Below, piece after piece: positions 33,420 through 41,909 of a stretch of 52,616 nt of DNA (positions are counted from its first letter, which is position 1; every line of letters starts with the position of its first letter). The DNA comes from Clostridia bacterium (GTDB lineage: Bacteria > Bacillota > Clostridia > Oscillospirales > Acutalibacteraceae), in the NCBI GenBank assembly GCA_017397105.1, contig JAFQKF010000034.1, forward strand, positions 1-52,616. The letters run 5' to 3'. Made by a program: the position numbers and the translations under genes. The notes below the pieces were generated by a model. The model was not told the DNA's origin. It saw nothing but the letters and a program-made list of their open reading frames with translations, and searched no databases.

Positions 33420-34490
33420 ATGCTCGATAAGCTTAAAGATATTGAAGAAAAATTTGAAGATATAAATGCGAAGCTCTTTGACCCCGAGATTGTTTCGGAT
33501 ATTGAGCAGTATAAAAAGCTCATGCGTGAGCAGAAAAAGCTTGCGCCCGTGGTTGAAAAATACCGTGAATTCAAGGGCGTGCAGGCGACGTACGAGGAAT
33601 CAAAGCAGCTGCTTGACACAGGCGGAATGGATAAGGATTTCCGTGAAATGGTGGAGGAAGAGTACGTAGAATCCGCAGAGAAGCTTGAAAAAATCAAGGA
33701 TGAGCTCAAGGTGCTGCTCCTTCCCCGTGACCCCAACGACGATAAAAACGTTATTGTTGAAATCAGAGGCGGCGCAGGCGGAGAGGAAAGTGCTCTGTTT
33801 GTAGGCGTGCTTTTCAGAATGTACTCAATGTATGCCGAATCAAGAGGCTGGAAGAGTGAAATCCTCAGCGCAAATGAAACGGGTCTCGGCGGCTACAAGG
33901 AAATCAGCTTTATGATTGAGGGCGACGGCGCATATTCACGCTTCAAGTTTGAGGGCGGAGTGCACAGAGTACAGAGAGTGCCCGAAACCGAAAGCCAGGG
34001 CAGAATTCACACCTCAACCGTAACTGTTGCAGTTTTGCCCGAGGCAGAGGAGGTTGACGTTGAAATCAACCCTGCCGATTTGCAGATTGACACCTTCCGC
34101 TCAAGCGGCGCAGGCGGTCAGCACATCAACAAAACGGAATCAGCTATCCGCATCACCCATATACCCACGGGTACAGTGGTTGAATGTCAGGATGAAAGAA
34201 GCCAGCATAAAAATAAAGACAGAGCCATGAGCATCCTGCGTTCAAGAATCCTTGAGCAGGAGAGGCAGAAGAGCGTTGATGCCATTGCAGGCGAGCGCCG
34301 TCTGCAGGTCGGTACGGGTGACAGAAGCGAAAGAATCCGCACCTATAACTACCCTCAGGGCAGAGTTACGGACCACAGAGTCGGCCTGACTCTTTACAGA
34401 ATAGAAGCCATTCTCAACGGTGACCTTGATGAAATTATTGATACTCTTATAACCGTTGATACGGCAGAAAAGCTTAAAAGTGAGAACTGA
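33420..34490 (+). CDS. prfA: Peptide chain release factor 1
   Basis: RF1 ends translation at UAA and UAG codons. The 356-residue protein has the catalytic G-G-Q at residues 232-234 ([18 protein letters not shown]) and the RF1 codon-recognition tripeptide position P-E-T in the [13 protein letters not shown] segment, which has P-x-T as in RF1 rather than S-P-F of RF2. GGAGG lies before the ATG. It is followed by one base and then the sua5-coaE gene. The usual neighbour prmC is not present. Confidence 0.95.
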
Positions 34491-34491
34491 T

Positions 34492-36126
34492 ATGCAAACC
34501 GAAATAATTAAAATTGAAGATTTAAGCAGGGATGCGGCGCTTATCGAAAAAGCAGGTGAGGTGCTGCGCTCGGGCGGTCTTGTTGCGATACCGACGGAAA
34601 CGGTTTACGGGCTTGCGGCAAATGCGCTTGACGGCGAAGCGGTTAAAAAAATCTTCCTTGCAAAAGGCAGACCGCAGGATAACCCCCTCATAGTTCACGT
34701 TGCCGATATATCGCAGATACCGCCGCTTGTGAAAAAGATGGATGAAAGAGTCTACGCTCTTGCAGAAAAATACTGGCCCGGTCCGCTTACGGTTATAATG
34801 GAAAAATCCGCAATTATACCCGATGAAGTGAGCGCAGGGCTTGATACCGTGGCGGTGAGAATTCCGTCAAATCCCGTAGCAAATGCCGTAATCAGAGCGG
34901 CAGGCGTGCCTCTTGCGGCGCCGAGTGCGAATTCTTCGGGTAAGCCGAGCCCCACGAGAGCAAGCCACGTTATTGAGGATATGGACGGAAAAATCGATAT
35001 GATAATCGATGCAGGAAAGAGTGAAATCGGCGTTGAATCAACCGTTGTAACCCTTGCCGAGGGTAAGCCCCGTTTGTTAAGACCCGGCGGAATCACCCTT
35101 GAGCAGCTTGAAGATGTGCTTGGTGAAACGCTTGTGGATAAGGCGGTTTTTTCAAAGCTCGGCGGCGGAGAAAAGGCATCCTCGCCCGGCATGAAATATA
35201 AGCATTATGCGCCGAAAGCGGAGGTCACAATTCTCAAGGGCAGCCTTGAGAGTGCGGCGGAGTTTGTCAATTCTCTCAATGAGGATTCCTGCGTTATGTG
35301 CTTTGACGGTGAGAGCAGCCGCTTTAACTGCAGATGTATTGAATACGGAGCTGAGAATGACAGCCTGAGTCAGGCGGAAAAGATTTTTGATGCTCTGCGC
35401 AGGGTGGATGAAACGGGCTGCGAAAAGGCTTACGTCAGATGCCCGAGCGCAAACGGAGTAGGGCTTGCTGTGTATAACAGATTGCTCCGCTCTGCGGCAT
35501 TCAGGGTTAAAAATCTTGAAAGCAGAATGCCCGTAATCGGTCTTACAGGGCAGACGGGAGCGGGCAAAACCACGGTTTCCGCTTACCTTGCAGAGCAGGG
35601 CTTTTACGTTATAGATACCGATATTCTTGCAAGAAAAGCGGTTGAGAATAAGGATGTGCTTTTAAGCCTTTGCGAGGAATTCGGCAACGATATTCTTTTA
35701 CCGGACGGCTCGCTTGACCGTAAAAAAACCGCTCAAAGAGCGTTTGCATCAAAGGAAAAAACAAAAGCGTTAAACGATATCACTCATCCCGTAATCACCG
35801 CAATGGTACATATTGAGCTTGAAAAGGCTCAGGCGCAGGGCGCAAAGGGAGCGGTGATTGATGCGGCGGCGCTGCTTGAAAGCCCTATAACACAGCTTTG
35901 CACCGTTACCGCAAGCGTCATGGCGCCGCTCGAGGAGCGCCTTGAGCGCATAATAAAGCGTGACGGTATTACCCGTGAGCAGGCAATGCTCAGAATTTCG
36001 GCACAGTATCCGGATGAATATTACAAGGAAAAAACGGATATCATTATAGAAAACGCAAACAACTCCGATTACAAAAAAGACGTGGCAAGGCTTATACGCC
36101 TGTGCTGCAAAGGAAAGGATGAATAA
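34492..36126 (+). CDS. Fusion of threonylcarbamoyl-AMP synthase (Sua5) and dephospho-CoA kinase (CoaE)
   Basis: A single 544-residue frame joins two enzymes. Residues 1-~340 are Sua5, which makes threonylcarbamoyl-AMP for t6A: P-T-E-T-V-Y-G-L, K-G-R-P-Q-D-N-P-L and A-P-S-A-N-S-S-G of the YrdC domain, then the smaller Sua5 domain starting near K-Y-K-H-Y-A-P-K. Residues 346-544 are CoaE, which phosphorylates dephospho-CoA: P-loop G-Q-T-G-A-G-K-T (353-360), then V-I-D-T-D-I-L-A-R. The second part has the full length of CoaE (about 200). The junction is a short linker with no stop or obvious frameshift. An internal ATG at M346 lacks a good ribosome binding site, but a separate CoaE product is not excluded. 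Confidence 0.92.
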   Translation: MQTEIIKIEDLSRDAALIEKAGEVLRSGGLVAIPTETVYGLAANALDGEAVKKIFLAKGRPQDNPLIVHVADISQIPPLVKKMDERVYALAEKYWPGPLTVIMEKSAIIPDEVSAGLDTVAVRIPSNPVANAVIRAAGVPLAAPSANSSGKPSPTRASHVIEDMDGKIDMIIDAGKSEIGVESTVVTLAEGKPRLLRPGGITLEQLEDVLGETLVDKAVFSKLGGGEKASSPGMKYKHYAPKAEVTILKGSLESAAEFVNSLNEDSCVMCFDGESSRFNCRCIEYGAENDSLSQAEKIFDALRRVDETGCEKAYVRCPSANGVGLAVYNRLLRSAAFRVKNLESRMPVIGLTGQTGAGKTTVSAYLAEQGFYVIDTDILARKAVENKDVLLSLCEEFGNDILLPDGSLDRKKTAQRAFASKEKTKALNDITHPVITAMVHIELEKAQAQGAKGAVIDAAALLESPITQLCTVTASVMAPLEERLERIIKRDGITREQAMLRISAQYPDEYYKEKTDIIIENANNSDYKKDVARLIRLCCKGKDE

Positions 36127-39860: not shown

Positions 39861-40718
39861 TTATACTGTACCGGTAACGGTCAGTGTGACTGTGCCGGGG
39901 GCAACACTCCAGGCTCCTGTTTCGGGGTCCTGAGTGAAGGTGGCAGCAGGTACGGTAATCTGACCGGGGACTGTTGCAAATGCACCCGTTGCGGGATTGT
40001 AAGTGTAATTTACGTTTTCTGTCCATGTTACTCCTTCGTAGGTTACTGTTATGGGGTTGAGTATGGGGTCAAAATTATCGGTTACGGTAACGTTATCGGT
40101 TGCAATCGCAGGTGCAGAGCCGCTGTTATAGATTGTAAAGGTGTAGGTGAGCTGGCCGTTTTCCGTTACCGAGGTGGGCGAAAGAGCCTTACTGATTGTA
40201 AGAATAGGCTCATCTGATGAGCTTATGGTTTCGTCTGCGGTTACGCTCTGGGCAAGGCCGTCGCCGCTGATTGTAACCGTGTTGGTGATTTGCGCAGCTT
40301 CTTCAATCGGCGCAAAGGTGTTGGCGGTGACGGAGTATGCCACCACAGTGTCGCCGTTTGCAGGCACGTTTATGCCGCTTATTACAAGATTGCCGTCGGT
40401 AACTGTTACGGCGGGTGACGGCTGTAAAACACCGTCAGCGTAGTACTTTACGGAGGTGTCAACGTAGGTCAGCGGCACGAGTGTATCGGTGCCGAAAGCG
40501 TAGGCGCCAAGGTCATCGGTGAGCGTGAGTCCTGTAAGAGGGGCTGCGCCCGAGTTTACAATGCTTATTATATAAGTCACGGTTGAGCCGTTTGTGTAGG
40601 AATCAACCACGGCGGTTTTTGCTGCCGATATTGCTTCCACAAGCTCGCCCTGAACGATGTTGGAGCCGGTTACCGTGTTGTTGTAGGACAGTGTTGCCTG
40701 ATTATAAAAGGTTGGCAA
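39861..40718 (-). CDS. DUF11 repeat protein without signal peptide
   Basis: A 285-residue protein made of two beta-sandwich repeats of the DUF11 (conserved repeat domain) type: residues ~25-135 (T-Y-I-I-S-I-V-N-S-G-A-A-P-L-T-G-L-T-L-T-D) and ~160-270 (Y-T-F-T-I-Y-N-S-G). It is Thr/Val-rich and low in charged residues, typical of surface adhesins, yet has no signal peptide or anchor. The start is a TTG at 40718, 7 bases after AAAGGAGG, giving L-P-T-F-Y-N-Q-A-T-L-S-Y-N; this opening is known from other leaderless DUF11 proteins of Clostridia. Upstream codons belong to the promoter. Its role is unknown. Confidence 0.82.
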   Translation of the reverse strand: MPTFYNQATLSYNNTVTGSNIVQGELVEAISAAKTAVVDSYTNGSTVTYIISIVNSGAAPLTGLTLTDDLGAYAFGTDTLVPLTYVDTSVKYYADGVLQPSPAVTVTDGNLVISGINVPANGDTVVAYSVTANTFAPIEEAAQITNTVTISGDGLAQSVTADETISSSDEPILTISKALSPTSVTENGQLTYTFTIYNSGSAPAIATDNVTVTDNFDPILNPITVTYEGVTWTENVNYTYNPATGAFATVPGQITVPAATFTQDPETGAWSVAPGTVTLTVTGTV

Positions 40719-40742
40719 AGAAAAACCTCCTTTTTTGTGATG

Positions 40743-40769
40743 TGAGAGAACTTCTCTCAGCCCATTATA
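40743..40769 (-). promoter_or_regulatory. -10 box and start-site palindrome of the DUF11 gene
   Basis: TATAAT on the minus strand (40764-40769) is followed by a perfect palindrome TGAGAGAA-n-TTCTCTCA (40743-40759) that spans the expected transcription start near 40757. It could be an operator or a 5' hairpin. The -35 region is weak. Confidence 0.55.
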
Positions 40770-40874
40770 TGCACCGTGCGGGGACGTTGACAGAGCAAAA
40801 ACAACAAACGTCACAAAAAATCCGCTTCGTAATTGTCAGATTCTACAAATCGCTTTAAAGTGCAAAAGTTTCTC

Positions 40875-40903
40875 TTTACTTTTGCGATTAAAAGTGGTAT
40901 AGT
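40875..40903 (+). promoter_or_regulatory. Promoter of the tyrA leader
   Basis: TTTACT (40875-40880), 17 bases, TATAGT (40898-40903), with an extended TGG-TATAGT. A dyad GCAAAAG (40862-40868) / CTTTTGC (40879-40885) overlaps the -35 box and may be an additional regulator site. Confidence 0.7.
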
Positions 40904-40926
40904 GTTAAAGAAAAGGAGCGGAAATT

Positions 40927-41004
40927 ATGAAAACTTTCGTTATTACAGCAGAATATTATTACGGCGCTGCATATTATTGCAGGGTCTGTTCTGCTGCGCT
41001 CTGA
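40927..41004 (+). CDS. Tyrosine-rich leader peptide of tyrA (attenuator peptide)
   Basis: A 25-residue open frame with AAGGAG 8 bases before its ATG. Residues 10-12 are Tyr-Tyr-Tyr and 16-17 Tyr-Tyr, so 5 of 25 codons are for tyrosine, plus one Phe at residue 4. It is immediately followed by a hairpin terminator and then tyrA. The composition, position and RNA pairing (see the attenuator) indicate that it is translated as a sensor of charged tRNA-Tyr and has no function as a protein. It is too short for usual gene-finding cut-offs. Confidence 0.87.
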   Translation: MKTFVITAEYYYGAAYYCRVCSAAL

Positions 41005-41061
41005 AGCTTAAGTAAACTTTAATTTTACGGCTTTGCAGCAGAAGCAAAGCCGTATTTTTTT
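40946..41061 (+). promoter_or_regulatory. Transcription attenuator controlling tyrA
   Basis: Four segments form mutually exclusive hairpins. Segment 1 CAGCAGAA (40946-40953) is complementary to segment 2 TTCTGCTGC (40989-40997). Segment 2 is also fully complementary to segment 3 GCAGCAGAA (41035-41043), which includes part of the 5' arm and all of the loop of the terminator. Tyr codons 10-12 follow segment 1 directly. A ribosome stalled there would cover segment 1, letting 2 pair with 3 and preventing the terminator; a ribosome that finishes at the stop codon (41002-41004) would cover segment 2 and allow termination. This is the classical logic of amino acid operon attenuators. Confidence 0.85.
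41027..41061 (+). terminator. Attenuator terminator upstream of tyrA
   Basis: ACGGCTTTGC (41027-41036) pairs perfectly with GCAAAGCCGT (41044-41053) around AGCAGAA, followed by A and seven T (41055-41061). It lies between the leader peptide and tyrA. Confidence 0.93.
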
Positions 41062-41081
41062 ATGGAAAAGGAGATTTTGTT

Positions 41082-41909
41082 ATGAAAATCGGAGTAGTTG
41101 GTCTCGGTCTTATAGGCGGTTCGGTTGCAAAAGCAATTAAAACTCATACAACCCACACTGTGTTGGGTGCTGATTTAAACGGTCAGGTAGTAAGCGATGC
41201 AATAAAAACAGGTGTGGCGGATGCTGAGCTTCTGCCCGAAAATCTCAGGGAATGCGAGGTTATATTTATTGCCCTCTACCCTCACGCAACCATTGATTTT
41301 GTGGAGAAGAATAAAACAAATTTCGGCTCTGCCACGGTGGTTGACTGCTGCGGCGTAAAGCAGATAGTGTGCGATGCGTGCGAAGTAATTGCAAGAGAAA
41401 ACGGATTTGTTTTCATCGGCGGTCATCCCATGGCAGGTATCGAAAAAACAGGATTTTACAATTCAAAGGGTGATTTGTTTGAGGGTGCGTCGATGATTCT
41501 CACCCCCTGCGAGGACGTACCCGAGGAGAATCTTGACAAGGTTTCCGCTGTTTGCACTCAGATGGGCTTCGGCTCAATTACGGTTTCCACTCCCGAGGGT
41601 CACGATAAAACAATCGCCCTCACCTCTCAGCTCGCTCACGTGCTTTCGAGCGCCTACGTTAAAAGCCCTGCTGCTCTGCTGCACACGGGATTTTCGGCAG
41701 GCAGCTTCAAGGATATGACGAGGGTTGCACGCCTTAACGAGGATATGTGGACGGAGCTTTTCTTCGATAATTCCTCTGCGCTTATTGAGGAGATTGACGG
41801 TCTTGTGCAGCGTCTTACGGAATACTCCGACGCTCTCAAAAACAATGACCGTGCAGGTATGCACGCTTTACTGGCAGAGGGTCACAGAATAAAGGAAATA
41901 GTAGGATAA
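41082..41909 (+). CDS. tyrA: Prephenate dehydrogenase
   Basis: TyrA converts prephenate to 4-hydroxyphenylpyruvate, the committed step to tyrosine, with NAD(P)+. The 275-residue protein starts with the dinucleotide motif V-V-G-L-G-L-I-G-G-S (residues 5-14). The substrate-site histidines are seen in G-G-H-P-M-A-G and S-Q-L-A-H-V. It is a bare dehydrogenase with no fused chorismate mutase or ACT domain, so feedback control by tyrosine may lie at the RNA level through the attenuator just upstream. AAGGAG precedes the ATG. Confidence 0.95.
   Translation: MKIGVVGLGLIGGSVAKAIKTHTTHTVLGADLNGQVVSDAIKTGVADAELLPENLRECEVIFIALYPHATIDFVEKNKTNFGSATVVDCCGVKQIVCDACEVIARENGFVFIGGHPMAGIEKTGFYNSKGDLFEGASMILTPCEDVPEENLDKVSAVCTQMGFGSITVSTPEGHDKTIALTSQLAHVLSSAYVKSPAALLHTGFSAGSFKDMTRVARLNEDMWTELFFDNSSALIEEIDGLVQRLTEYSDALKNNDRAGMHALLAEGHRIKEIVG

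Follow-up and report, generated by a model that had tools for sequence, protein, structure and literature searches.

The window analysed here, a 52,616 bp contig of a Clostridia bacterium genome (JAFQKF010000034.1), carries a tyrA gene that is preceded by a short ORF rich in Tyr codons and by an intrinsic terminator (Table 1). The TyrA protein scores below the NCBIfam equivalog cut-offs, with prephenate dehydrogenases as its best-scoring models, and its Pfam domains point to an enzyme that makes the amino acid of the leader codons. The nearest gene to the left with Pfam matches (39861-40814) lies on the opposite strand to tyrA, and therefore the terminator is most likely part of the leader transcript. 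The product of this divergent minus-strand gene matches DUF4183, TRAP_beta and DUF11-type models weakly; elsewhere in the window an ORF of 556 aa (34456-36126) has Pfam matches to both Sua5 (threonylcarbamoyl-AMP synthase) and CoaE (dephospho-CoA kinase), an apparent fusion.

Table 1. Features of the tyrA leader region, in positions of the window
Feature	Position	Strand	Remarks
Promoter-like TTTACT-17-TATAGT	40875..40903	+	TG before second hexamer; consensus match 9/12
Shine-Dalgarno AAGGAG of leader ORF	40913..40918	+	
Leader ORF MKTFVITAEYYYGAAYYCRVCSAAL	40927..41004	+	ATG at 40927; 25 sense codons, five of them Tyr; aligns with leaders of L044-L046
Segment 1 CAGCAGAA	40946..40953	+	directly 5' of Tyr codon 10; pairs with segment 2; pairing conserved in relatives
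Tyr codons 10-12	40954..40962	+	proposed first stall site (constrained folding)
Tyr codons 16-17	40972..40977	+	proposed second stall site (from sequence)
Segment 2 TTCTGCTGC	40989..40997	+	partner is segment 1 or segment 3
Leader stop codon TGA	41002-41004	+	
Antiterminator extension GAAGCT	41003..41008	+	pairs with 41029-41034, G-U included
Intrinsic terminator	41026..41061	+	11-bp stem (41026-41036 with 41044-41054), 7-nt loop, T7 at 41055-41061
Segment 3 GCAGCAGAA	41035-41043	+	inside terminator, mostly loop
tyrA, prephenate dehydrogenase, 275 aa	41082..41909	+	no aroF beside it; PDH_N and PDH_C domains (Pfam)

The original prediction for this DNA was a ribosome-mediated tyrosine attenuator with a 25-codon leader, its own AAGGAG site, Tyr codons 10-12 and 16-17, and three alternating segments. 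All of these were found at exactly the positions given for them, with the Tyr codons directly following segment 1 and the stop codon just past segment 2. The terminator has the seven T residues described, on a stem of 11 bp rather than 10. The nine-base pairing of segments 2 and 3 likewise holds, with the correction that segment 3 is mostly terminator loop and shares just two bases with the 5' arm, which is entered by six further pairs. The locus thus combines a short ORF with a Shine-Dalgarno site and tandem codons for the pathway product, whose translation is predicted, with an intrinsic terminator between this ORF and the gene. The promoter-like site is weak by itself, because two sites of this quality occur in 351 bases and shuffles give 0.8.

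Left unconstrained, the leader is predicted to fold into a 1:2 hairpin plus the terminator (-54.3 kcal/mol), and the 158-nt fold has a z of -5.9, with 0/200 shuffles as good. Folding with and without a ribosome, proposed together with the original prediction as a check, bore it out. A ribosome on Tyr codons 10-12 was modelled by masking the first 69 nt, footprints here being rough choices; the antiterminator then becomes the minimum fold (-25.3) and the terminator is absent, whereas a ribosome at the stop codon restores the terminator (-30.9). The mean terminator pair probability accordingly passes from 0.99 in the free RNA to 0.28 in the stalled state and back to 0.99 at the stop; with a shuffled spacer the stalled state gives 0.93. 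The predicted antiterminator has 15 pairs, nine at segment 2:3 and six more between 41003-41008 and 41029-41034, so that the 5' arm of the terminator is invaded. In the window, then, mutually exclusive 1:2 and 2:3 pairings are predicted in the positions suited to stalls at the codons and at the stop. When one strand was shuffled, the antiterminator duplex was matched in 101/5000 trials and the 1:2 pairing in 107/5000; the relatives weigh far more than these single-sequence statistics.

Relatives were drawn from several searches. Within the genus, a search of 45 genomes (the window's included) detected TyrA in 34 of them at E 1e-30. In L012-L025, the 14 most similar apart from the window itself, tyrA is always preceded by a DAHP synthase gene, aroF, and leaders such as MKNNVFTAAYFYFYFIK stand in front of aroF-tyrA; the other 19, being more distant, were left out of further analysis. 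A scan of named genome contigs supplied the best 80 of 587 relatives, labelled mostly as Clostridia, Clostridiales, Ruminococcus and Oscillospiraceae-type MAGs (Treponemataceae and Fretibacterium labels among them look misplaced). The family-level search gave 61 TyrA matches in 398 genomes, all of which were read, and the order-level search 139 in 345 genomes, of which 70 were read. Once identical TyrA and six truncated loci had been removed, the set comprised 197 distinct loci whose upstream DNA was readable, a sample ranked by likeness to the window TyrA and not an unbiased census.

The tyrA genes of these Clostridia mostly lie downstream of aroF (150/197 distinct loci), and 142 of these 150 loci have an aromatic leader containing codons for both Phe and Tyr, in 132 distinct peptides (the leaders of L067 and L078 were set by hand). 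We call a tyrA 'lone' where no aroF match ends within 500 bases upstream; 12 of the 47 lone loci have a leader and 35 have none by the rule used. That rule matches 154/197 upstream regions, 4/197 reverse strands and 159/3940 shuffled upstream regions, so that one or two chance matches among the 47 lone loci would be unsurprising; both the rule and the 'first six aromatics of the run' measure used below were fixed after leaders had been seen. Judged by sequence, the window leader is a member of an unannotated family of aromatic leaders that stands before aroF-tyrA operons, a relationship the original prediction had missed.

Several members show features of their own. The L025 leader MATYNCTVEYFWYGFYFTIENSRVNLRCK, upstream of aroF on the minus strand of its locus, has a Trp codon within the Phe/Tyr run, and Trp occurs in the scored stretch of 7/101 aroF leaders, one of them through a mis-set start (L067); some Trp-containing leaders may sense all three aromatic amino acids. 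Upstream of aroF in L012-L021, L023 and L024 the leader stop falls within a short inverted repeat that varies slightly around TATCAAGTAATTTGATA, and these loci have the terminator loop AAATTTA in common. Eight aroF-tyrA loci have no aromatic leader by the rule (L095, L109, L111, L218, L220, L222, L227, L233); other control is possible there.

Terminators above the score used follow 63/71 leaders in an early set and 102/110 in a later one, the window included. From the 63, 30 leaders less than 70% alike were taken for a pairing test in which cognate segments were compared with permuted ones. Cognate pairing was stronger both for segment 2:3 (-13.49 vs -11.48; z -4.4; 0/20000 permutations; n=30) and for segment 1:2 (-13.92 vs -10.88; z -6.4; 0/20000 permutations; n=30); the terminator arms, as a positive control, gave z -17. 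When base composition was controlled for by dinucleotide shuffling, z was -6.6 and -6.3, with 0/300 sets each. The signal is not uniform: the cognate pairing beats the non-cognate mean in 23/30 leaders for 2:3 and 24/30 for 1:2 (no better in 7/30 and 6/30), and per-locus shuffle tests are weak, with p under 0.05 for 20/63 antiterminators and 14/63 1:2 pairings. Related genomes keep both the Tyr codons and the pairing, the joint loss of which had been named in advance as counting against the original prediction.

Full-length equilibrium folding gives a complete switch in only 2/102 leaders, of which the window is one, because the terminators of the relatives are too strong, and the relatives would therefore have to work kinetically. 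A second fold test used RNA that ended just short of the terminator 3' arm, a form chosen after the full-length test had failed, and in this kinetic form the exclusive pairing is found in the relatives as well. Engagement of the terminator 5' arm and loop with upstream sequence in the 102 cut leaders is 0.75 when stalled, 0.50 when free and 0.42 with the ribosome at the stop; with a shuffled spacer the stalled value falls to 0.48. Stalled engagement exceeds that of a leader's own shuffles in 99/102 leaders (28/30 dissimilar ones, Wilcoxon p 3.5e-8), and exceeds free engagement by over 0.05 in 70/102 but not in the other 32. Two lone tyrA loci may be added here: L110 has a family-like leader and terminator, but no usable antiterminator pairing was found in it, possibly because another register is used, and L221 has a leader and terminator that resemble the family.

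Two FastTree trees of TyrA place the window beside L044-L046 (support 98 and 99), to which it is up to 62% identical, compared with 44-54% for the same-genus L012-L025. L044-L046 are all aroF-tyrA loci with leaders like MDRFTMTAAYYYYGFAYFYGKAYVAVAAKRDFP, and their promoter region, leader and terminator align with those of the window in DNA. Where they read GGC TTT GC(T/G) (Gly-Phe-Ala), the window reads GGC GCT GCA (Gly-Ala-Ala), turning GFAY into GAAY, and the window leader also lacks the second Phe found in the L044 run. No synteny was seen, none of nine window proteins being matched in six loci (L044-L046, L182-L184), which is compatible with loss of aroF on the spot as well as with a move of tyrA away from it.

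Runs with no Phe among their first six aromatics occur in 0/142 aroF-tyrA leaders and in 6/12 lone-tyrA leaders, namely those of the window, L141, L144, L153, L154 and L212, which correspond to three changes on the tree, in three lineages. The window run has five aromatics in all; those of L141, L144, L153 and L154, which belong to one genus, have six Tyr each. Phe codons do occur 5' of the run in the window, L141, L144, L153 and L154, and 3' of it in L144, L153 and L212. A Phe-free run, read from the codons, is thus not unique to the window: two other lineages contribute five lone tyrA genes with one, which the original prediction had missed. An earlier and cruder measure, Phe anywhere in a 12-codon stretch, shows a weaker contrast, the window alone being Phe-free among 9 lone-tyrA leaders and 0/101 among aroF leaders. 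The other six lone tyrA genes with a leader have mixed Phe/Tyr ones (L110, L142, L145, L176, L196, L221); the leader of L142 differs little from those of L165 and L172, members of its genus that have kept aroF, and the locus looks like the outcome of a recent aroF loss.

The Tyr-only run looks like a state derived from a mixed Phe/Tyr one, a direction of change suggested by the sequences compared. Its association with lone tyrA gives a Fisher p of 5.5e-8 when kinship is ignored; among independent pairs, two or three point in the expected direction, none in the opposite one, and three or four show no difference (sign test, median p 0.25). On these comparisons a link between operon loss and a Phe-free run is suggestive, not proven. 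What else the window genome holds is seen incompletely: the assembly is 1.85 Mb and 76% complete. The tyrA locus has no aroF, and the absence of aroF from the genome as a whole is uncertain. One DAHP synthase was detected, with no cross-match to the aroF of tyrA operons, in a shikimate cluster whose genes were identified by eye as aroA-aroC-pheA-aroE/K-aroQ-DAHP synthase (pheA and DAHP synthase supported by Pfam also). Crude scans for a leader before this cluster turned up nothing in L043 except ORFs that lie within or overlap coding genes, and no aromatic-rich ORF in the upstream stretches L193 and L041. In eight genomes with lone tyrA, one of which has no tyrA leader, scans of ~1.4 kb upstream of the DAHP synthase genes likewise detected no leader; as the loci cover only that distance, the operon start may lie outside.

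The anatomy, the constrained folding and the conservation in relatives together support the ribosome-mediated attenuation originally proposed, and we consider it highly probable, from sequence and modelled folds, that the window leader is a Tyr-specific attenuator of tyrA derived from an aromatic aroF-tyrA attenuator by loss of the Phe codons of its run. With ample Tyr-tRNA, a ribosome translating the leader would reach the stop codon and cover segment 2, letting the terminator form; were the leader untranslated or vacated, segments 1 and 2 would pair and the terminator would stay. With Tyr-tRNA scarce, the ribosome would stall at Tyr codons 10-12 (or 16-17) and cover or cut off segment 1. With segment 1 blocked, segment 2 would pair with the loop and 5' arm of the terminator and transcription would continue into tyrA. 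The Phe codons of the run would have been lost in the lineage in which tyrA stands without aroF.

The reading that survives best beside this one, if still an improbable one, is a general aromatic or translation-stall attenuator, in which the Tyr codons are simply inherited and a shortage of Phe or Cys, or slow translation, would also relieve termination. It is in keeping with the 142 aroF-tyrA leaders, whose runs all have at least one Phe and one Tyr within their first six aromatics, and with the one Phe codon (codon 4) and two Cys codons left in the window leader. Against it, the run of the window leader has lost its Phe codons, and a ribosome at Phe codon 4, taking a footprint of ~28 nt, would be expected to cover only the start of segment 1. 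Also in its favour is the Phe-Tyr-Phe leader aroR, before aroF of Corynebacterium glutamicum, for which a response to Phe but none to Tyr has been reported (PMC11802643, PMC4046766).

Far less probable than even that reading is a T-box or another ligand- or protein-sensing leader, with the small ORF incidental. The window genome itself yields 10 T-box matches (E 0.001), of which 4 exceed the curated cut-off; they lie before genes read by eye as pheS, cysE-cysS, aspS, trpB, thrS, alaS, valS, ileS and two acyl-CoA-ligase-like genes. At gathering scores, however, neither a T-box (RF00230) nor any other non-tRNA Rfam family was found over the whole window, the Phe, Trp, His, Thr, Leu and other leader families included; relaxed scores gave nothing credible, and the leaders of nine relatives had no match at gathering score, the highest being 30.6 bits for Thr_leader in L022, where the cut-off is 55. 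A T-box or other Rfam element was therefore rejected as the identity of the leader, and conservation of the ORF and its aromatic codons in relatives speaks against an incidental ORF. We give as little credence to a chance ORF before an unregulated terminator, constitutive or leaky: the single-sequence pairing is matched by about 1 in 50 shuffles, but leader, pairing and terminator are all homologous in relatives.

The Tyr-specific attenuator favoured here belongs to a class of mechanism, trp/his/phe-type attenuation, that is already known; what would be new are its specificity for Tyr, the bacterial group that hosts it and the change of codons. Attenuators of this class have a leader ORF with tandem codons for the end product, 1:2 versus 2:3 pairing, an intrinsic terminator and a biosynthetic gene downstream. 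The window leader resembles the trp, his and phe leaders of Proteobacteria in all of these, and differs in its Tyr codons, its tyrA gene, its clostridial host, a segment 3 that lies largely in the terminator loop, and the lack of a Rfam leader match at gathering score. Leader attenuators described in the literature include trpL and pheL of Proteobacteria (PMC11802643) and the his leader (PMC9413887). His leader peptides are also described in Firmicutes (PMC2965389, PMC9413887), placing leader-peptide attenuators outside Proteobacteria and Actinobacteria too, but with His codons and his genes. By description, the closest precedent is C. glutamicum aroR, an aromatic leader peptide before a DAHP synthase operon with ribosome-mediated attenuation, which differs from the window in its actinobacterial host, its Phe-Tyr-Phe codons and its place before aroF rather than a lone tyrA. 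The uORFC-13-1 motif, which combines a uORF carrying Phe codon(s) with a terminator before aroF, likewise resembles the window family by description; it comprises 24 sequences, only from Acholeplasma and the environment, and its section mentions no Tyr codons (PMC8632094). T-boxes are the control usually assigned to tyrosine genes of Firmicutes. A survey of Actinobacteria lists tyrosine under T-boxes (PMC1262725), and the accessible text of PMC4833913 has nothing on tyrosine.

The original prediction had called a tyrosine codon leader for a lone tyrA unusual in Firmicutes and had named no described case. The open full-text literature of PMC yielded no Tyr-specific ribosome-mediated attenuator. 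Nor did the PMC open full texts yield an attenuator for the aroF-tyrA of these Clostridia.

Taking the family as a whole, we lean towards the broader view that an unannotated aromatic attenuator family governs aroF-tyrA across an order of Clostridia, and that its sensing codons shift along with the operon, the mixed Phe/Tyr run having repeatedly become Tyr-only at lone tyrA genes, in three lineages, giving what may be the first Tyr-specific ribosome-mediated attenuators. The leaders form a natural series, from mixed on aroF-tyrA through mixed on lone tyrA to a Tyr-only run on lone tyrA, in which a change of the amino acid sensed by an attenuator can be tested directly. Such a family would also give a regulatory role to a short ORF that stands before aroF or tyrA in many Clostridia, including those of the gut.
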